From contig JAAYVH010000078.1 of the NCBI GenBank assembly GCA_012517255.1, positions 1 to 39,276 of the forward strand: 39,276 bases of DNA, in the 5' to 3' direction. Both the position numbers and the translations under genes were made by a program. Below are positions 11,462 through 21,449 of this stretch, in pieces; position 1 is the stretch's first letter, and every line of letters starts with the position of its first letter. Origin of the DNA: Chthonomonadales bacterium (GTDB taxonomy: Bacteria > Armatimonadota > Chthonomonadetes > Chthonomonadales > CAJBBX01). The notes beneath the pieces were generated by a model. It was not told where the DNA came from. It did no database searches and worked only from the letters and a program-made list of their open reading frames with translations.

Positions 11462-12085
11462 GTGGCAACGGGCAGCGAAGCGCAGACATCGTTCTTTGGC
11501 GGTGGTGAGGCGGTTCCGGATGCCGACCTCGTCGAAGCGGCGCGTCGGGGAGATGAGCGGGCCTTCGATGTGCTGTTCCAGCGGCATTACCCGCGGGTAG
11601 CCGGCCTTGCGCTTCGTCTGCAGGGCAACGCCGAGGATGCCGAGGACATTGCGCAGACGGCGTTCGTCAAGGCTCATGCCAACCTGAGCCGAGTCCGGGA
11701 CGGTCAGGCGTTGCTCGCATGGCTGTACCGCACGGTGGTGAACGATGTCCGCGATCGCGCGAAGGCGCGCAGACGCAAGCCGTTGGTTCTGCTGAGTACC
11801 GTGATGAACCGGCGCGACGGTTCGGAATCAGCGCCTTCGCAGGAGCCTGGGGATCATGAGCTCGATCCTGCCCGGATTGTGGCGAGTTCGGAGCGGGATC
11901 GGGCTCTGGAGCGCGCTATCGGTCAGTTGCCGCTGGAGTTCCGCGAGCCGGTTGTGATGCATCATCTCGAGCAGATGGACGTCGCGGACATCGCGAAGGT
12001 TCTGGGCGTGCCCGCAGGTACCGTGAAGTCACGGCTGTCCCGTGGACGCGCCCGTTTGCGGGAGGCGATGGCCGAATGGCTATGA
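11462..12085 (+). CDS. ECF-type RNA polymerase sigma factor
   Basis: A sigma70-family group 4 factor of 207 residues. Region 2 is ERAFDVLFQRHYPRVAGLALRL with DAEDIAQTAFVKAHANL (core binding and -10 recognition). Region 4 is LPLEFREPVVMHHLEQMDVADIAKVLGVPAGTVKSRLSRGRARLREAM (-35 helix-turn-helix). A linker of about 40 residues joins them. It starts at GTG 11462 with AGGAG 15 nt upstream, a rather long spacing, so the start is slightly uncertain. It is followed directly by a zinc-finger anti-sigma factor and an RseB-like protein, the standard layout for an envelope-signal-controlled sigma factor. The regulon is unknown. Confidence 0.92.
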   Translation: MATGSEAQTSFFGGGEAVPDADLVEAARRGDERAFDVLFQRHYPRVAGLALRLQGNAEDAEDIAQTAFVKAHANLSRVRDGQALLAWLYRTVVNDVRDRAKARRRKPLVLLSTVMNRRDGSESAPSQEPGDHELDPARIVASSERDRALERAIGQLPLEFREPVVMHHLEQMDVADIAKVLGVPAGTVKSRLSRGRARLREAMAEWL

Positions 12086-12125
12086 AGGCCTGCGTCGGGG
12101 GTGCCGTAAGAGAGGGAGTATGGCG

Positions 12126-12581
12126 ATGAAGTGCGCCGAGGTTCGAGACAATATAGCCGCGCGTCGTTCGGGATGGCTGTCCAGCCGCGACGAGGCCGCC
12201 CTGGATGCGCATCTGGCGGCCTGTGACGCATGCCGTCGGCAGATGGATGCGGACGCTCGGCTGAGCGAACTACTGAGCGCATTGCCGCAGCCTCGGTTCG
12301 CGTCGCCCACATGGGCGCAGGTAAAGGCCGCCCACTCACCTGCGCGCCGTTCACGACGCTGGTTCTGGCTCGCGCCTGCCTTCGGTTCGGCGGCCGTCGC
12401 GGCGACGGTGTTGTGGATCACGCTCTTCGGCATCGGGCGGACGCCCGGACCTCAGCAAGTGGCGATGGACACGATGGACAAGGCCGCGCGTGAGACACAT
12501 CTGATGTTTGCGGCATCAGACCTGAGCGGCGACCCGAATCGCGCGGTCGTTGTCTGGCTTGGCGACGCGGGAGCCAGATGA
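12126..12581 (+). CDS. Zinc-finger (zf-HC2) transmembrane anti-sigma factor
   Basis: The 151-residue protein begins MKCAEVRDN and carries the anti-sigma zinc site Cys3 ... His29-x3-Cys33-x2-Cys36. It then has a basic linker (HSPARRSRR), one membrane helix (WFWLAPAFGSAAVAATVLWI) and a short outer tail with a possible second contact region. The N-terminal domain should hold the ECF sigma factor inactive until a signal triggers release. The ATG at 12126 is chosen because GGGAG at 12114-12118 is 7 nt before it; the ATG at 12120 would be too close. It lies 40 nt after the sigma gene and its stop is 1 nt before the next start. Confidence 0.85.
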   Translation: MKCAEVRDNIAARRSGWLSSRDEAALDAHLAACDACRRQMDADARLSELLSALPQPRFASPTWAQVKAAHSPARRSRRWFWLAPAFGSAAVAATVLWITLFGIGRTPGPQQVAMDTMDKAARETHLMFAASDLSGDPNRAVVVWLGDAGAR

Positions 12582-12582
12582 G

Positions 12583-13668
12583 ATGGTTGTACCGGCGCGG
12601 CACGTCAGGTACGGGCGCATCCCCATACCAACGGCGCTGTTCGGTTGCTGGCTATTCCTGGCAGCGGCGTCGTCGCACGGCGCGCCAGATGCCGCAGCCG
12701 TTCGCTGGCTGACGAAGGCGCTCACCGGCTCGACGGTCGGGTATTCGGGCGTTCAGACCACGATTGTGTACAGCGAGCAGGGCTCCGTCGAGTCACGCGT
12801 TCGCGTTCGAGGGGATGGTCGGGGGAACAGTCTCCGCGAGTTCCTTAGCGGTCCGGCATCCGGAACCGTGTTGCTCCAGACGCCGGAGGGGCGCTACCAG
12901 AAACGCAGCGGCGGGGGCTACGTGCGCCTGCCAACGTCGGCCGACGGCACTCCTTCCGATGCAGCTAAGCTCATCGTGGCGAACTACAACGTCACCATGA
13001 GTCCGGGGCAGAGCATGCTCGGCCGCAAAGTGACGAAGATCCTGATTGTGCCGAAGCATCCGTCGAGCCCTTCCAGAGTGATGGCCGTCGACACCAGCAC
13101 CGGGCTGGTTCTCGCGGATACGCTGGTCGCGCCGGGGGGCCAGAAACGGTCCGTCACCAGCTTCGTTGAGCTGAAGTATGGCGCCCAGCCGTCCAGCGTG
13201 TTTGCGGCGCCGAAACCTGTCCCTGCGACTGGGGCCGACTTTGGACCGGGCTCCTTCGCAGCGCGCGGCTCGGAGCGCGCGGTGCTGTCGGAGACCGGCC
13301 GTGCAGTTCCTCGCCCGTCGTATGTGCCCGCAGGTTTCCGCGTCGGAACCTACGGGGTCATGCGCACCGGCTCCGGACGCCTGACGCCGGCGGTTCGGTA
13401 TACCGACGGCCTCGCAGCCTTCTCCATCTTTGTGCGAGGTGCTGGTCAGGGCATGGGCGTGGGCATGGGACCGCGCGGGCGAGGTCGTGGCCCCGGTCCC
13501 CATCGTTTCGGACGCGGACCCGCCGGCTCGGAAAGCATCGGCAGCGTGTCTATCCAGAGCGACCGTCAGCAGGCGACGGTCCTGTATACGGGCAGGACCG
13601 GCTCGTACATCCTCATCGGTGATATCGCGGCGGATGAGCTGGCCAACGTAGCCCGCAGTCTGCCGTAA
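12583..13668 (+). CDS. RseB/MucB-like periplasmic sigma-regulatory protein
   Basis: A 361-residue exported protein: an N-terminal signal segment (IPTALFGCWLFLAAASSHGA), then a LolA-like N-domain typical of MucB/RseB (YSGVQTTIVYSEQG, MLGRKVTKILIVPK, VDTSTGLVLADTLV, VTSFVELKYG). A C-terminal domain follows with PRPSYVPAGFRV and AVRYTDGLAAFSIFV. In known systems RseB binds the anti-sigma factor and shields it from proteolysis until lipid or lipoprotein signals arrive. A Gly/Met/Arg-rich low-complexity insert (GQGMGVGMGPRGRGRGPGP) interrupts the C-domain and is unusual. ATG at 12583 with GGGAG 9 nt before; 1-nt gap to the anti-sigma gene. Confidence 0.72.
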   Translation: MVVPARHVRYGRIPIPTALFGCWLFLAAASSHGAPDAAAVRWLTKALTGSTVGYSGVQTTIVYSEQGSVESRVRVRGDGRGNSLREFLSGPASGTVLLQTPEGRYQKRSGGGYVRLPTSADGTPSDAAKLIVANYNVTMSPGQSMLGRKVTKILIVPKHPSSPSRVMAVDTSTGLVLADTLVAPGGQKRSVTSFVELKYGAQPSSVFAAPKPVPATGADFGPGSFAARGSERAVLSETGRAVPRPSYVPAGFRVGTYGVMRTGSGRLTPAVRYTDGLAAFSIFVRGAGQGMGVGMGPRGRGRGPGPHRFGRGPAGSESIGSVSIQSDRQQATVLYTGRTGSYILIGDIAADELANVARSLP

Positions 13669-13823: not shown

Positions 13824-13897
13824 GGCGGGATAGCTCAGTCGGTCAGAGCGAACGGCTCATAATCGTTAGGTCGAGGGTTCGAGTCCCTCTCCCGCTA
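13824..13897 (+). tRNA. tRNA-Met (anticodon CAT)
   Basis: A 74-nt cloverleaf: acceptor stem GGCGGGA (13824-13830) pairs with TCCCGCT (13890-13896) with one G-U at the end; D arm GCTC/GAGC; anticodon stem AACGG/TCGTT with loop CTCATAA, anticodon CAT at 13858-13860; T stem GAGGG/CCCTC with loop TTCGAGT. The discriminator is A13897 and CCA is not encoded. The CTCATAA loop and overall sequence fit elongator methionine; an isoleucine tRNA with a lysidine-modified CAT anticodon cannot be excluded by eye. Confidence 0.93.
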
Positions 13898-13982
13898 CTC
13901 CGGCCTCTCGCGCACGGCGGTCTGATCGTAGTTGAGACCGGACGCCGTAACCTTGCCCGTGCACGAAGCGTCCGTATAGTTG

Positions 13983-15053
13983 ATGAACTCGATCACCACG
14001 CGCGTTCACGCGCTTATCGTTGCCATCGTCGTTTCTCTGGCTTGCGCCTCGGTCCGGGCGGATGACTTCGTCTGGACGTCTGGTCGCGTCCTCGATAGCG
14101 CCGGGAATCCCGTCAGCAACGCGATGGTCGCCGTCTACGACTCCAAGAACCGGGTGGTGGACTACGTCAAGACGGACGCTAAGGGCGAGTACACGCTCGC
14201 CATTCCCCCGAGCGCTCTCAACCTTTCTCGCCGCAGGAGCGGCTTCGTGCATCAGGTCTCTCGGTCGGTCAACCAGGCGGTAGGCAACCTCGCCAGCGGG
14301 CCCATCAAAGCAGGCATCCGGGCCGCGAGCGGTGCGGTGGCCGCGTCAGACCCCCTGACACGAGCGGGTATAGGGGCCGCCGTGGGCATCGCGACGAACA
14401 TCGTGGATGTCGTCACAGGCTCGGGGGCGAAACGAAGTCCTTTGCGAAGGACTGCGCCGGGAGTCATCGCCATCAAGGCTGTGGCGGAAGGCCACAAAGA
14501 TGCGATATCGCTCGCGCGCGTCTACTGGGTGCAGGAAGAGGTCTACGCTGCAGGCGGGCGCAGCCAACGTGCCGTGGTTGCGTGGCTTGATCCGGTCAAG
14601 CTTTCGCCGGAGAACGCTGCAGGCGCATCCGGAGTTGCTTCAGACTATCTCACGTTCACGGAGGCCCGCATCAGTCCGGGCATCGTTGAGCGTGGTCAGG
14701 AAGTCACCCTTTCGGTGACGTTTCGCAAAGCGCCCGAGCCTCGGACGCCGGTGGTCGTCGTGGCTCGGAACGCTCGGACGGGCCAGAAGTACGGCATGGA
14801 CCCCGTTGGACCTGACCGATATGAGTGCCGATTTGTGGTGGACAAGCGCCACCCGCTCAACGATCAGGTGATCACCGTGCTGGCCTATCCGGAACAGGAT
14901 GTTCGACCGGGACGGAACCCTGACGCGGAACGGGCAATAGAGCGTGCCGGTCATTGGGATCCGAAACGGGCCTTTGTCTACGATCCGCTGCTGCTAGCCA
15001 GTCGCAATAGGGTCGAGCTAACGCTGACTGTCGTGGATCTGGGTCGGCGTTAG
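13983..15053 (+). CDS. Secreted protein with carboxypeptidase-regulatory-like domain
   Basis: A 356-residue exported protein. The signal peptide is LIVAIVVSLACASVRA, cleaved before DDF. Residues of about 28-75 (SGRVLDSAGNPVSNAMVAVYDSKNRVV, then DAKGEYTLAIPP) match the beta-sandwich CarboxypepD_reg fold found in many cell-surface proteins. The middle (about residues 95-145) is an odd Ala/Gly-rich, mildly hydrophobic stretch (ASGAVAASDPLTRAGIGAAV, then GIATNIVDVVTGSG) that looks membrane-active or oligomerising. The C-terminal half has a second beta-rich domain (SPGIVERGQEVTLSVTFRKA) resembling an Ig-like adhesion or carrier domain. The start is ATG 13983, just before the signal peptide, with only a weak ribosome binding site. 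Function is not recognised. Confidence 0.7.
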   Translation: MNSITTRVHALIVAIVVSLACASVRADDFVWTSGRVLDSAGNPVSNAMVAVYDSKNRVVDYVKTDAKGEYTLAIPPSALNLSRRRSGFVHQVSRSVNQAVGNLASGPIKAGIRAASGAVAASDPLTRAGIGAAVGIATNIVDVVTGSGAKRSPLRRTAPGVIAIKAVAEGHKDAISLARVYWVQEEVYAAGGRSQRAVVAWLDPVKLSPENAAGASGVASDYLTFTEARISPGIVERGQEVTLSVTFRKAPEPRTPVVVVARNARTGQKYGMDPVGPDRYECRFVVDKRHPLNDQVITVLAYPEQDVRPGRNPDAERAIERAGHWDPKRAFVYDPLLLASRNRVELTLTVVDLGRR

Positions 15054-15175: not shown

Positions 15176-18100
15176 ATGATCGATGACATGGCCGTGCCGG
15201 CCGAGGGCGTTGACACCCCGGCCAGCTCGGACGAACGTGCGCCCGTCGAGACCGACGGCGCTCCGGAGTCCGATAGCAGTCCCCGCCGCACCGCTTCATC
15301 CGCGCGCCGGTCCCGCCGATCCGGGCGCCGACCGTCTGCCGCGAAACCCGAGTCCCCGGAGCCAACCGGAGAGTCCGAACCGACTTCGTCTGATCTGAGT
15401 CCGGAGGCATCGGCAACAGACGATGAGTCTCGTCCCGAACCCGAGGCCAAAGGCGCCCGAGCTCCGAGAAGCCGGCGACGGTCGCGGCGGACGCCTGCAC
15501 CGGCGAGCGTCGCTCCTGCCGAGCTAGAGTCCGTGGCAAACGCCGAAGCGCCCCAGCCATCGGAGCCTGTCCCGGCTATGCTCGAGCCGATCGAGCCTGC
15601 CGCGCAGCCCACGGAGCCCCAGGTCCGTGACAAGCGGGGCGGAAGGCGTCGGCCGGAAGCGCCCAGAGTCTCGCTGCTTCCGCCGGAGTCCGAGCAGGAG
15701 CAGACCGAAGAGGACGTTGAGCCGGAGTCCAGGCCAGCGGCGAAGTCGCGCGAGGCCAGAAGACCGACGGCATCGAAGACACTGCCGCCTCTACAGGCAG
15801 CTCCGAAGATCGTGGTCAGGCGAGGGCTGCCCGAGCTGGTGATCGGCGGCGAGAGTGTCGCTCCTTCGTTCTTCTTTGGCAATGTGAGCGATCCGGCCAC
15901 GGTCAAGCGTGTGCACAGCCAGATGCAGCGCGCTGCCAGGGCGGGGGTGCGCGTATTCTCCACGCTGATCGAGCTTGTCTGTCCCATGCCACCCGACGAC
16001 CGGGTGTATGAGGCGCTGGATGAGCGCATCGAGCGAATAGCGGACTTCGACCGGCATGCGTACCTCATGCCGCGGATCGTGTTCTTGCCCATGCGCGAAT
16101 GGCTCGAGCAGTATCCGTTCGAAGTGCAGGCGCTTGAGTCGGGGCCCACGGGCGAACCCTCGATTGCGTCGGACCACTTCTGGGCGGAGGCGTGCCGCTC
16201 CATCAAGCTCTTGATCGAGCACGTTCGGCGCACGAGCTATGGCTCGCGCGTCATCGGATACCACCTCGAGCGGGGCGAATGGTTCCAGCCGTCGGCGGGC
16301 GGGTTCGATCGGTCGATAGCCAACCGTGAGGGCTTCCGCCGATGGCTCCGTGCCAAGTACTCGGACAGCGAAGTGGCGCTGCGAGCGGCATGGTATGACG
16401 GATCGGTGCAGTTCTTTACCGCCGAGATTCCGAAGGCGCGCGAGGTGAACGCCGGCGTTGCGTTCTATGACTCGCGGCGCGAGCGCCGGTGGGTGGACTT
16501 TATGGAGTACACCTCGGACGTCACCGCGGACCGTATCATCGCGCTGGCGGAGACTGTCAAAGAGGCCACTGACGGCGACTCTCTGGTCTCGGTGAGCTAT
16601 GGGTACACATGGGAGTTCCTGCATCCGTGGTCCGGTCATCTGGCCTTCGAGAGGATCCTGAACTGCAAGTCGGTTGACATCGTTTCGGGCCCGGTGTCGT
16701 ACTCGGACAGGGCGCCGGGCGGTTCCGGTGCGCTGCCCGTGCCGGTCGACAGCGTCGCAGCGCACGGCAAGCTCTGGATCACCGAAGACGACACCCGCAC
16801 GCATCTGGCCAGCTCCGGCACGGGGCCCGACAGCTTCAATCCCAGGATGGAGAATGCCGCCGCTACCGAGAGCGTTCATGCGCGGGCGATCGGCACGGCC
16901 CTGGCGCACCAGACCGGCATTTCCTGGATGGACCTCTGGGGACAGGGCTGGCTGGACTCCGATCAGATCTGGGCTCGAATCGGCCAGTTCGCCGACATAT
17001 ACGAGCGTTCGGTAAAGACGCGCCGAGTTCAGACGCCTGATGTGGTCGCGTTGCTGGACGAGCGCAGCATCTGTCACCTCAGCGGATCCAACGGACTCAT
17101 CAAGAGGATCGTACACGGCAACCGGGAGGCCCTGTTGCGCTGTGGAGCGACGGTGGGCTTCTATCTGCAACGTGACGTGTTGCTGAAGTCGTTCCCAACA
17201 GATGCGAAGCTTTATCTGTTTCTGAACCCCTATCGCCTTTCGGAGGAGGAGCGGGCCGCCATCAAGGAGCGCATCCGTCTGCCGGGTCGCATGCTTGTCT
17301 GGATGTTCGCCGTTGGAGCCCTCACGGACCGCACGGCGATGGAAGAGCCGACACCCGACGTGGTTGGACTGAATCTGCGCCCACAGCCCTGGAACAGCGA
17401 GATCGGTACGCGCATCGTCGAGCCAGGGCATCCCGCTGTGCAGTACATTGAGAATCGTCTGCTCGGAGTGCGGGAGCGTCTCAGCCCATCGTTCTACCTC
17501 GACGATGACAGTCCGGGCATCACGGTCCTCGGCGAGTACGCACAGACAGGGCTCCCGTCGCTGGTAACGCGGACGTTTGAAGGCTGGACATCGGTTTTCT
17601 GCGGCGAGCCCGCCTTGAGCCCCGAGCTTCTGCGCGGCCTGTGTCGGTTCGCGGGCGTCCATCTCTACACGCGCGCGCCGGAGGACTACGTCAGCGCAGG
17701 TAACGGTTGGCTTTCCATGCATGTGCTGCGCGATGGACAGCGGACCCTCACATTGCCCGAAGGAACCATGGTCTATGACGTCGCCGACGGCTATGCATCC
17801 AGCCCCGATGCTCGAGACTACCGCACGCCGGTGAAGGCGCGAACGACGCGCCTGTTCGCTCTGGGCTCTGCGGCAAGCATCAGACGTCTGGGATTCGATC
17901 CGAGCCGCACGCGACCAGTGCCGCAGCCCAGTGAGCCCTCTCCTGCACGTCCGCCTGTTCCGGCGTCTGCGCCTGACGCAGATGCTGAGCCCGGCGCGCT
18001 GGTTGTAGCAGCTCGATCCGAGCTGCTCGCTCCTGCCGACACGTCGGAAGCTGCAGAGGCGATCGCGGAGCTCCGAGAGGAGCTGACCGCTGCGCTTGTC

Positions 18101-18253
18101 TCGGGCGACGAGAATGGGGCCGAGACGGCGACGGCCCCCACGTCGGACCAGCGGAAGCGACGTCGCCGTCGCGGCGGGCGCGGACGGGGCAGACGGCGGG
18201 GTGCGGAACAGCAGCCGGCAGACGGACCTCCGTCGCAGCCAGAAGCCTCCTGA
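15176..18253 (+). CDS. GH42-like glycosidase core with Arg-rich disordered tails
   Basis: A 1025-residue protein in three parts. Residues 1 to about 200 are low-complexity Pro/Glu/Ser/Arg sequence with basic patches (SARRSRRSGRRPS, PRSRRRSRRTP). Residues from about 205 to 900 look like a clan-A (GH42/beta-galactosidase-like) glycoside hydrolase: VIGYHLERGEWF (candidate acid/base Glu365 or Glu368), KLWITEDDTRTHL (candidate nucleophile Glu537), WMDLWGQGWLDSDQI, and a flavodoxin-like later part. From about 905 to the end it is again disordered and finishes with an RG-rich block (RKRRRRRGGRGRGRRRG) like those of RNA-binding proteins. There is no signal peptide, so it should be cytoplasmic. GGGAG lies 8 nt before ATG 15176. 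mtaB follows after 16 nt. Confidence 0.7.
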   Translation: MIDDMAVPAEGVDTPASSDERAPVETDGAPESDSSPRRTASSARRSRRSGRRPSAAKPESPEPTGESEPTSSDLSPEASATDDESRPEPEAKGARAPRSRRRSRRTPAPASVAPAELESVANAEAPQPSEPVPAMLEPIEPAAQPTEPQVRDKRGGRRRPEAPRVSLLPPESEQEQTEEDVEPESRPAAKSREARRPTASKTLPPLQAAPKIVVRRGLPELVIGGESVAPSFFFGNVSDPATVKRVHSQMQRAARAGVRVFSTLIELVCPMPPDDRVYEALDERIERIADFDRHAYLMPRIVFLPMREWLEQYPFEVQALESGPTGEPSIASDHFWAEACRSIKLLIEHVRRTSYGSRVIGYHLERGEWFQPSAGGFDRSIANREGFRRWLRAKYSDSEVALRAAWYDGSVQFFTAEIPKAREVNAGVAFYDSRRERRWVDFMEYTSDVTADRIIALAETVKEATDGDSLVSVSYGYTWEFLHPWSGHLAFERILNCKSVDIVSGPVSYSDRAPGGSGALPVPVDSVAAHGKLWITEDDTRTHLASSGTGPDSFNPRMENAAATESVHARAIGTALAHQTGISWMDLWGQGWLDSDQIWARIGQFADIYERSVKTRRVQTPDVVALLDERSICHLSGSNGLIKRIVHGNREALLRCGATVGFYLQRDVLLKSFPTDAKLYLFLNPYRLSEEERAAIKERIRLPGRMLVWMFAVGALTDRTAMEEPTPDVVGLNLRPQPWNSEIGTRIVEPGHPAVQYIENRLLGVRERLSPSFYLDDDSPGITVLGEYAQTGLPSLVTRTFEGWTSVFCGEPALSPELLRGLCRFAGVHLYTRAPEDYVSAGNGWLSMHVLRDGQRTLTLPEGTMVYDVADGYASSPDARDYRTPVKARTTRLFALGSAASIRRLGFDPSRTRPVPQPSEPSPARPPVPASAPDADAEPGALVVAARSELLAPADTSEAAEAIAELREELTAALVSGDENGAETATAPTSDQRKRRRRRGGRGRGRRRGAEQQPADGPPSQPEAS

Positions 18254-18269
18254 GGCGGCGAGTCGAGCC

Positions 18270-19583
18270 ATGCCAACCGTGGCCTGCGCGACGCTTGGGT
18301 GCAAGGTCAACCAGTACGAGTCCGATCGAATACTCGCCGGCTTTGCCGAGCGTGGGTTCTCTATCGTCGCCGCTGAGGCGCCTGCGGATGTCTACGTGAT
18401 CAACACGTGCTCCGTCACAAGTGTTGCCGAGGCGAAGTCACGGAAGCTCATCCGCAAGCTGGCCAAACAGAATCCGGGCGCGACGGTGGTAGTCACGGGA
18501 TGCGACGCAGAGATGGCCAGGCTAGTGGGGCGCACATTCCCGGACGCTACGCTCATCGTCGCGAACGACGCGAAGCTCGACATACCGCGACGGGTGGCGG
18601 ATCGGTTCGCATCACGCATGTCCGCGGAGGCGCCGGTCACATCCGTTCAGCCCTCGCATGGTCCGCGCATCCGGAGGGTCATCAAGGTGCAGGACGGATG
18701 CGATATGTTCTGCACCTACTGCTCGGTGCCCTTAACTCGCGGTGAGGTACGGTCGCGCAGTGCGCGTGATATCCTCGCCGAGGTGGCCTCGGCAGTCGCG
18801 ACAGGTCATCGCGAAATCGTGTTGACGGGCGTCCTCCTGGGATCCTATGGACGGGACTTCTGCCAGAGCCAAGCGACGGGTGAGCATCCGGGCAGCGGCA
18901 ACGCCGTCGAGGATCTGCCGTCGCTGATCAAAGAGATAGCGGCAGTGCCGGGGGTGGAGAGGATACGTCTGTCTTCCATCGAGCCTCCGCAGGTCAGCGA
19001 GCGATTGCTCGATGCTGCCGCGCAGATCGCGGCATTCACCCCGCATCTGCACATCCCGCTGCAGAGCGGCGACGACGGCGTGTTGGCAGCCATGAACCGT
19101 CCGTACACTCGTTCGGAGTACCGGGATCTTTGTCGGCGAGCATGCAGCACCATCGAGGATCTCGCTATCACCACAGACGTCATGGTCGGGTTCCCCGGGG
19201 AGACCGATCAGGCCTTCGAAAACAAGCTGGATCTCGTTCGCGAGATCGGATTCACCCGGATGCACGTGTTTCGCTACTCACCCAGACCGTTGACGGTTGC
19301 CGCCTCGCGGACCGACCAGGTGCCTGAGTCGGTGCGGGCTCAGCGCGCGAACCGGCTGGGGCAGGTGGCCCGCGACCTGCAACTCGCATTCGCGCGACGG
19401 TACCTGGGCCGCACCATGGATGTGCTGGCCGAACCGTTGCGGGACTCGCCGGGCTGGCTGGCGGGCTACACTCCCAACTACATCCGGGTGGTCTTTGAAG
19501 GAAGGCCTTCGGCCGTCGGCCAGATCGTGCCGGTTCGTCTGCTTCGAATCCGTGGCGCAGCGGTGCTCGGCGAGCTCAGCTAG
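18270..19583 (+). CDS. mtaB: tRNA t6A37 methylthiotransferase MtaB
   Basis: A radical-SAM enzyme that adds a methylthio group to N6-threonylcarbamoyladenosine at position 37 of ANN-decoding tRNAs. The 437-residue protein has the N-terminal cluster domain (TLGCKVNQYES with Cys11, NTCSVT with Cys47, TGCDAE with Cys78), the radical-SAM motif Cys144-x3-Cys148-x2-Cys151 in QDGCDMFCTYC, the SSIEPP and LQSGDD strands, and a C-terminal TRAM-like RNA-binding domain. LGCKVNQYE distinguishes MtaB from MiaB and RimO. ATG 18270 is chosen because homologues begin just before the first motif; upstream in-frame sequence overlaps the preceding gene in another frame. Its TAG stop overlaps the stop of the convergent kinase. 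Confidence 0.92.
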   Translation: MPTVACATLGCKVNQYESDRILAGFAERGFSIVAAEAPADVYVINTCSVTSVAEAKSRKLIRKLAKQNPGATVVVTGCDAEMARLVGRTFPDATLIVANDAKLDIPRRVADRFASRMSAEAPVTSVQPSHGPRIRRVIKVQDGCDMFCTYCSVPLTRGEVRSRSARDILAEVASAVATGHREIVLTGVLLGSYGRDFCQSQATGEHPGSGNAVEDLPSLIKEIAAVPGVERIRLSSIEPPQVSERLLDAAAQIAAFTPHLHIPLQSGDDGVLAAMNRPYTRSEYRDLCRRACSTIEDLAITTDVMVGFPGETDQAFENKLDLVREIGFTRMHVFRYSPRPLTVAASRTDQVPESVRAQRANRLGQVARDLQLAFARRYLGRTMDVLAEPLRDSPGWLAGYTPNYIRVVFEGRPSAVGQIVPVRLLRIRGAAVLGELS

Positions 19584-20530
19584 CTACGCGGCGGCCTCGG
19601 ACCGAGATGGGACACGACGCGCGCTGCCAGAGACGTTCCGAGATACGCGGACTCCTCCACGGACTTGCCATGGGTGAGCCCGTACAGCGCTCCTGCGGCA
19701 AACGCGTCGCCGGCGCCGGTGGTGTCCACCAGAGGCACTGCCTCGGCTGGCGTCAGCGTCACCGTCCCGTTCTGCGCAGCGAGAGCTCCACGGCCGCCCA
19801 GCGTGACAAATGCTGTTCGGCCTGCTGAGCCTAGATGAGCGGCGGCCTGCTCGGCGCTCTCGTGCCCGGACAGGAGCTTGGCCTCTTCTTCATTGCCGAA
19901 TACGATGCTCACGTGATCGGCAAGCAGCCGCCGAAAGTCGTCGCGATGGCGCGTCACGCAGAACGTGTCGGCAAGGCTCATGGCAACAGGCATGTCCAGT
20001 CGCTCCGCCTCGGCGATGGCGGCCATGACCGCTTCCTTCTGCGAGTCGGTGTCCCAGAGGTATCCCGTCACGTACAGACAAACGCTGTTGCGCAGCGCAT
20101 CCAGGTCGAGGTCCGAGGGCGACAGGTTGCGCCCCTCGCCGAGGAACGTACACATGGTCCGCTCTTTGTCCGGGGTGATCAGGACGACGCACAACCCCGT
20201 GGCGCCTTCTCCGGCTGGCACACTGGGATGAACGCCCGCCTGGCTGAGCGACTCACGGTAGGCGGGTCCGAAATCGTCTCGCCCGACCCGGCTGGTGAAA
20301 CAGGCGCTCCCTCCCAGGGATGCGATCCCGATGGTGGTATTGGCGCCCGAACCACCCGCGGCCTGGTTAACGATGCGGGACCGGATCCTGGCCACGAGCG
20401 CGGCATGCTGATCGGAGTTGACGAGGTGCATCCCTCCCGGTTTCAGACCAAGCTCTTCGAGGAGGCCGGGGTCTGCCTCCGCCTGCAGATCGAAGAGGGC
20501 GTTGCACATCGCGAACACATCAAAGCGCAT
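19580..20530 (-). CDS. PfkB-family carbohydrate/nucleoside kinase (adenosine-kinase-like)
   Basis: A 316-residue ribokinase-family enzyme that phosphorylates a sugar or nucleoside hydroxyl with ATP. It shows AGGSGANTTIGIASLGG (substrate region), VGRDDFGPAYRESL, NEEEAKLLSG, and the C-terminal signature DTTGAGDAFAAGAL, whose GAGD aspartate is the catalytic base. The N-terminal MRFDVFAMCNALFDL and the later pattern most resemble the adenosine-kinase branch, but substrate cannot be fixed by reading. The start at 20530 is supported by GGAG 6 nt upstream. Four bases (CTAG, 19580-19583) are shared with the convergent mtaB stop. It is divergent from the Spo0M-like gene across 106 nt. Confidence 0.85.
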   Translation of the reverse strand: MRFDVFAMCNALFDLQAEADPGLLEELGLKPGGMHLVNSDQHAALVARIRSRIVNQAAGGSGANTTIGIASLGGSACFTSRVGRDDFGPAYRESLSQAGVHPSVPAGEGATGLCVVLITPDKERTMCTFLGEGRNLSPSDLDLDALRNSVCLYVTGYLWDTDSQKEAVMAAIAEAERLDMPVAMSLADTFCVTRHRDDFRRLLADHVSIVFGNEEEAKLLSGHESAEQAAAHLGSAGRTAFVTLGGRGALAAQNGTVTLTPAEAVPLVDTTGAGDAFAAGALYGLTHGKSVEESAYLGTSLAARVVSHLGPRPPRS

Positions 20531-20636
20531 GATAGGCTCCATAGAAGGTTCGTCACGAATGACGTCAGCGCAATGGCGCAGGAGTCCGCCGAGCGCATGC
20601 ATAATCATGACACATGGCAACGCGGAGGTGCACAGG

Positions 20637-21449
20637 GTGTTCTCTCGTCTAGGTGCGATGCTCGGCATGGGGTCGGCGACGGTCGAAATCGCCTTGCCGT
20701 CAGCGCAGGTCTTCAGGGGTTCGGACATAGCGGGATCGGTGGTGCTCATGGGAGGGCGAGTCTCCCAGCGAGTGCGTTTGGTGACCGCCGACCTCTACGA
20801 GTACTGGATCCGTGGCCACGGCAAGAACCGGCGGTATTATCAGCGCCGGCACGAGCGGCTGGTTCTCGCGGAGTATCTGCCCGTCGATCCGAACTTCGAG
20901 CAGCAGTTTGCGTTTCGATTCAGGGTCCCCGACGATGCTCGCTGTACGCGCCGGCGGGAAGGCTGGGAAGTGCGCGTGGAGGCTCACATACCGTGGTCGG
21001 TGGACTCGCGTGCAAGCGCACCCATCAGGGTCATTCCTCATGCTGAGATCCTCGCCGTGCAGCGAGCGACGCGGGACTGGCTCAAGTTTCAGCCGCTGGA
21101 ATGGTATGGTTCGGGCGCCGAGGTCTACTACAACTTCCGCGCTCCGAATGAGATGCGTGAAGTGCTGGATGGTCTGGCGCTGCGCATCAGCGTGACCGAT
21201 GACATGGTGGAGGTGAAAGCGGAGTTCAATAAGCAGGAGCGCACGATGCGAGAGAGACTGGGTTCTCTGGTGGGCGCAGACCGGGAGCGGGTCGGCATCA
21301 CCATTCCGCGGGCCGAGTTGCTCTCGAAGCGCGGAACGCCGCTGCCCGCTGGAGCCTACCCGCACATGGCGGCGCTGCTGCAGCGGATCGGCATTGTCCC
21401 GCCTCCGCCGCCAGTGGCCGTGCAGAGTACCGGAGGAAGTGAAGGATGA
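20637..21449 (+). CDS. Spo0M-like (arrestin-fold) protein
   Basis: A 270-residue protein whose start, FSRLGAMLGMGSATVEI, followed by a beta-rich arrestin-like N-domain (FRGSDIAGSVVLMGGRVSQRV), matches the Spo0M family named for the Bacillus sporulation-control protein. The family occurs well outside spore formers and its biochemical role is not settled; a scaffold or trafficking role is proposed by the arrestin fold. The GTG at 20637 is selected because GGAGG (20624-20628) lies 8 nt before it and it opens directly with the family N-terminus. The last residues are Pro-rich (GIVPPPPPVAVQ). It overlaps the aldo/keto reductase start by 4 bp (ATGA), so the two are co-translated. Confidence 0.78.
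   Translation: MFSRLGAMLGMGSATVEIALPSAQVFRGSDIAGSVVLMGGRVSQRVRLVTADLYEYWIRGHGKNRRYYQRRHERLVLAEYLPVDPNFEQQFAFRFRVPDDARCTRRREGWEVRVEAHIPWSVDSRASAPIRVIPHAEILAVQRATRDWLKFQPLEWYGSGAEVYYNFRAPNEMREVLDGLALRISVTDDMVEVKAEFNKQERTMRERLGSLVGADRERVGITIPRAELLSKRGTPLPAGAYPHMAALLQRIGIVPPPPPVAVQSTGGSEG

Follow-up and report, generated by a model that had tools for sequence, protein, structure and literature searches.

The window analysed here, the whole stretch of 39,276 nucleotides from a genome of the Armatimonadota near Chthonomonas, encodes a conserved cytosolic GH42-like protein that is flanked by tails with Arg clusters under selection. The reading that best accounts for this protein, with a probability of about 0.45, is that of an ancient cytosolic GH42-like glycosidase whose tails tether it to some polyanion of the cell, RNA or ribosomes being the likeliest. 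The gene lies at 15176..18253 of the forward strand, starts with ATG and, stop included, codes for 1025 amino acids. The protein matches no Pfam family at E≤0.1 and no NCBIfam model, and phmmer finds no PDB sequence for it. Its closest named relative comes from Chthonomonas calidirosea, with 64% identity in the best segment, and no paper on the protein was found in the open-licence literature.

The N-terminal tail (residues 1 to about 205; 15176..15790, forward strand) consists of Arg-rich clusters set among acidic, proline and alanine stretches, and the C-terminal tail (residues 906-1025; 17891..18250, forward strand) is mostly disordered in the model. In the full-length AlphaFold model, built with 27 orthologues, pLDDT falls below 50 almost everywhere in residues 1-203, as well as in 929-956 and 976-1025, and one helix is predicted inside the C-tail at 956-975. 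Runs of Arg/Lys occur at 37-52, 100-105, 153-159, 195-196, 993-999 (RKRRRRR) and 1006-1008. The low pLDDT and these runs bear out the Arg-rich disordered tails that a sequence-only reading had proposed for both ends. The RG/RRR block placed by that reading in the last tail was found at residues 993-1008 (18152..18199, forward strand), with its RG repeats inside a disordered segment, and it is conserved at the protein level in f1 and f2; the labels f1-f45 denote families from the genome search, f1 being that of the window. The net charge is -7 for the N-tail and -2 for the C-tail. Because acidic stretches alternate with the Arg clusters, the tails are slightly acidic and not simple polycations.

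No hydrophobic N-terminal stretch was seen in the sequence of the window protein, in agreement with the earlier claim that an export signal is absent. The protein lies outside the eight highest N-terminal hydrophobicity values listed for 95 orthologues, most of which have low values. As judged from its sequence, the window protein is cytosolic. Arg clusters can bind anionic lipids and the paralogues of the protein look secreted, so that a non-classically exported or membrane-bound glycosidase, held by its tails on anionic lipids or the cell wall, may be considered. It is very improbable given the N-termini just described and the tight coupling to era in three families.

The tails were compared in 95 chosen orthologue loci from 11 families, an Arg/Lys cluster being defined as a stretch of six residues with at least four Arg/Lys. 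Orthologue starts were taken as the first start codon after a stop, so that tail lengths are upper bounds; L056, L060, L072, L080, L086, L092 and L095 are among those that look over-long, and L099 has only 17 N-tail residues. At least one cluster was present in 93 of the 95 N-tails (the exceptions being L099 and L150) and in 93 of the 95 C-tails (L070 and L087), which answers positively the proposed check of tail conservation in related genomes. The mean number of clusters was 4.8 per N-tail against 1.5 in shuffled sequences, and 1.9 per C-tail against 0.33, indicating clustering beyond what composition gives. Tail-less, simply exported homologues, named beforehand as the finding that would speak against the idea, exist only as distant paralogues (~30-36% identity) and not among the orthologues.

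The peptide RRRRRGGRGRG occurs unchanged in 15 of 20 f1 and f2 proteins, and each of its positions is written with three to six different codons. A peptide that stays constant despite codon turnover indicates that selection acts on the protein, and it rules out that the tail is produced by a spurious reading frame in GC-rich DNA. In a motif search, the shorter RRRRGGRGR was encoded once in the window's own genome, in the gene of the tailed protein. In one related genome, the most clusters among 308 sampled called genes were four, against seven in its orthologue; in a second, the most among 337 were five, again against seven, the genes in both being greedy longest ORFs in sampled stretches, some of them spurious. 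The single motif site and these counts rule out that such tails are a genome-wide habit. AT-hook-like [RK]GRP repeats occur in 2 of the 95 N-tails. These repeats, and the general ability of Arg clusters to bind any polyanion, could point to DNA or the nucleoid as the target of the tails in place of RNA, or to tails that do not discriminate among polyanions. Such binding is quite unlikely, since AT-hook cores are rare, the style in f1 and f2 is RG/RGG, and both neighbours, era and mtaB, belong to RNA biology.

The folded core comprises residues 206-920 (15791..17935, forward strand) and is predicted to consist of a barrel, a Rossmann-like middle domain and a C-terminal beta domain, with domain names taken from the match to GH42. 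It was modelled by profile-based AlphaFold with 55 orthologues at a mean pLDDT of 91.6 and a pTM of 0.93. The structure prediction proposed for residues 205-900, run on 206-920, thus gave a barrel plus two further domains, and the model shows the three-domain GH42 fold. GH42 beta-galactosidases took the top rank in Foldseek; the match to 3tts (E 7.9e-24) extends over nearly the whole length at 15% identity, and its structural alignment gave a Z of 22.6 with 606 residues at 3.7 A. The GH42-like barrel of the sequence-only reading is confirmed by this match and the core model. By VIA-align, GH35 galactosidases scored Z 25 over about 380 residues, against Z 22-23 over about 600 for GH42. The sequence profile of the orthologues found GH42 chains weakly (best E 0.00018). 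The Pfam GH42 model (PF02449) matched 28 of 55 orthologues at E≤0.01, the best at 9.3e-10, and the window protein falls short of its sequence cut-off. On the predicted model, the core in its entirety is best described as GH42-like, with no claim that it belongs to the family.

Two glutamates stand out as candidate catalytic residues, Glu368 as acid/base (16277..16279, forward strand) and Glu537 as nucleophile (16784..16786, forward strand). Of 95 orthologues, 88 have Glu at the first of these positions and 88 at the second, 86 retain both, and all 95 carry W369 and D539; in a first set of 55 orthologues, E368 was kept in 54 and E537 in 53. In core-model numbering, Glu368 comes just after strand 156-160 and Glu537 lies within strand 328-333. 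GH42 enzymes carry the catalytic pair on strands 4 and 7; the register of E368 to GH42 was set by motif, at a point where the HMM alignment is shifted by one residue. Glutamates at 365, 368 and 537 had been put forward from the sequence. All three exist and E368/E537 form the conserved pair; the part that did not hold is E365, which alternates with D (E in 58 orthologues, D in 34, other residues in 3). Two paralogues in the window's own genome, L002 and L003, do not have E365 and keep Glu-Trp at 368-369 and Glu at 537. This alternation and these paralogues make E368 the better acid/base candidate, as inferred from sequence comparison. Clan GH-A enzymes carry an Asn-Glu pair at the acid/base position; in the window protein and most orthologues Gly precedes E368, and Asn does so in few.

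One or both glutamates are lost in 9 of the 95 orthologues, all from f15, and this label requires at least four changes on the tree. All nine proteins keep the tails, the end motif and era as neighbour. The losses, set beside the invariant W369 and D539, are what a structural pseudoenzyme or sugar sensor could leave behind, in which the pocket serves to bind a ligand and catalysis is a by-product. With both glutamates kept in 86 of the proteins and no loss outside f15, this is very improbable for the protein as a whole.

In the phylum, 220 of 291 genomes have a match at E≤1e-20. By manual count at E≤1e-100, 160 of the 173 genomes in 11 families (f1, f2, f3, f8, f9 and f14-f19) carry an orthologue. 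Among the other 118 genomes, only G212 passes this threshold, and its protein bears a hydrophobic N-terminus and lacks a C-tail. In a tree built with FastTree only, the 95 orthologues from the 11 families form one clade against six paralogue rows, which represent five different genes (L002 and L031 being one gene); of ten paralogue loci, L026, L028, L029 and L032 were left out. The tree needs 11 changes for 12 groups, the fewest possible, matching the family boundaries, so that inheritance looks vertical in the sampled sequences. The protein looks to be present as one orthologue per genome and vertically inherited across much of the phylum. Its retention as a single inherited gene over this range suggests a housekeeping role.

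Downstream in the window lies mtaB, for a tRNA t6A37 methylthiotransferase (18270..19583, forward strand), whose product passes the MtaB equivalog TIGR01579 with 380 bits against a cut-off of 357.05. The stop of the tailed-protein gene is 16 nt upstream of the likely mtaB ATG (18270), exactly as the sequence-only reading had it. The linkage to mtaB that it stressed holds in the window's own family, with mtaB downstream of the tailed gene in 7 of 11 f1 loci (G001 not being among those examined); in the loci examined it does not extend beyond f1 and is therefore local. An MtaB over the cut-off sits on another contig in G005, G006 and G007, and none over the TIGR01579 cut-off was found in G001 and G011. 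The upstream neighbour, with a CarboxypepD_reg domain (13980..15053, forward strand), occurs in the same seven f1 loci. Farther upstream, a tRNA-Met (CAT) gene is found at 13824-13898, just over 1 kb from the tailed gene, and a row at 11462-13668 comprises an ECF sigma factor, a short ORF for what may be the cognate anti-sigma factor, and a protein weakly similar to MucB/RseB. A Spo0M-like protein adjoins an aldo/keto reductase at 20418-21449.

Neighbours in other families were counted in the 95 loci chosen from among the 160 orthologue-bearing genomes. The gene for Era, a ribosome assembly GTPase, is next in all 55 examined loci of f14, f15 and f17 (18/18 and 37/37). The gap from the tailed gene ranges from -26 to +15 in these families, except for a single gap of 164, and the one Era protein scanned from these loci passes its equivalog cut-off. 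The era gene is not next in f16 (6/6 loci), f18 (1/1) and f19 (4/4). The linkage to era in f14, f15 and f17 is a stronger link to an RNA gene than that to mtaB. Overall, the sequence-only interpretation is supported in part: the GH42-like fold, the cytosolic location, the conserved tails and the mostly kept glutamates stand, and the mtaB linkage does not stand in the form proposed.

A FRKR-like C-terminal motif, FRKR[DE], is present in all 55 f14, f15 and f17 proteins (e.g., L101, L088 and L086), where it overlaps the likely ribosome-binding site for era. Its first Arg is written AGG in 12 of 55, compared with 6.4% of Arg codons, a bias that fits such a site; CGC, CGA and CGT are also used. 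These varied codons, and the FRK kept by f18, which has no era downstream, led to rejecting in part the idea that the motif is only a ribosome-binding site. From these sequences, peptide selection seems to be added to the ribosome-binding-site constraint.

In 50 genomes (12 of f1, 17 of f2, 2 of f3, 12 of f8 and 7 of f9), nothing better than 2.4e-25 was found with the Era model, and one of them had no hit at all. The hits in the window's own genome sit in frames of 449 to 716 amino acids and so look like other GTPases. Era appears to be absent from all 50 genomes, the window's own included, at genome sizes of 1.2 to 7.6 Mb. A strong Era hit is also missing in many of f20-f45 and is mostly present in f14-f19. 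Most of the 50 genomes keep the tailed protein, which does not, then, depend on Era, and Era as an obligate partner is ruled out. A role needing Era is unlikely, the 50 genomes coming from the order of the window and two families that are sisters to it. The Era-less groups that a review names are mainly genome-reduced ones, and the absence of Era in bacteria with large genomes is a second puzzle that can be tested. The genes beside era often belong to metabolism and have no known connection with it (PMC10582724).

Immediately upstream of the tailed gene, a HAD phosphatase-like gene is present in f16 (6/6), f18 (1/1), f19 (4/4), f17 (1/1) and f15 (21/51), which fits plain sugar metabolism. Together with the conserved glutamates and the beta-galactosidase match across nearly the whole core, this neighbour makes a plain sugar enzyme the leading alternative. 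The protein would then be an ordinary cytosolic glycosidase on imported or endogenous beta-glycosides, with tails that only solubilise it, form condensates or bind partner enzymes. This is possible, if rather doubtful: near-universal inheritance along family lines is judged unusual for a catabolic glycosidase, and Arg clusters well above composition speak against it, as do the f15 proteins that lost catalytic residues while the gene persisted.

In the preferred reading, that of a glycosidase held on RNA or ribosomes, the ancestor would be a secreted GH42-like glycosidase that, before the carrier families diverged, shed its signal peptide and acquired tails. These tails would attach to a polyanion of the cell, with RNA or ribosomes as the likeliest partner, and keep the barrel there, where it would bind and usually cleave a glycoside in the cytosol. 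The choice of RNA or ribosomes is suggested by the type of tail, the era and mtaB neighbours and an RG-tailed ribosomal protein S3. The nine f15 proteins that lost glutamates and kept tails, end motif and era argue for a separate non-catalytic role, which in some lineages might alone still be under selection. Against the reading stand the overall charge of the tails, near neutral to acidic, and the lineage-specific gene adjacency. A bolder version, rather unlikely, would have the glycosidase recruited to RNA housekeeping. Its tails would dock on RNA, while its barrel would either cleave or sense a sugar carried by RNA, or by a glycoconjugate linked to ribosomes or tRNA, or else would signal cytosolic sugar to ribosome assembly; some f15 relatives would have kept docking after catalysis was lost. 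The tailed protein seems to be encoded by a core gene in a phylum that has been little studied, and it unites two parts that rarely occur in one protein. Should the tails dock on RNA, this glycosidase would have a place in RNA biology, and the glutamate-loss lineages would make the separation of catalysis from docking directly testable.

Several known systems can be compared with the tailed protein. RNase E/G of other bacteria has Arg-rich tails, but the five readable RNase E/G frames of the window's family (L127, L129, L132, L134 and L136) end without one, and homology to such a tail was rejected. The nearest RG/RGG-tailed example is S3 of the window's own genome (L241 516-1310, contig 111), the only strong KH_2 match there, whose RG/RGG-rich C-terminal extension runs past the family profile. 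Both proteins have an RG-rich C-terminal tail; that of S3 is of the RGG type on a ribosomal protein, whereas in the tailed protein a glycosidase fold lies between the tails, which also contain acidic stretches. The paralogues L002, L003, L025, L027, L178 and L181 share ~30-36% identity with it over the core. Unlike the tailed protein they have hydrophobic export-type N-termini, and most of them extend no more than a few residues beyond the core and are without Arg clusters. With the GH42 beta-galactosidases (3tts, 1kwg and 4uni), the window protein has in common the fold of the whole core, and its two candidate catalytic glutamates may lie at matching strands. It differs from them in an identity of just 12-15% without a Pfam match, in Gly instead of Asn before the candidate acid/base Glu, in its disordered Arg tails, and in its inheritance along family lines across much of the phylum.
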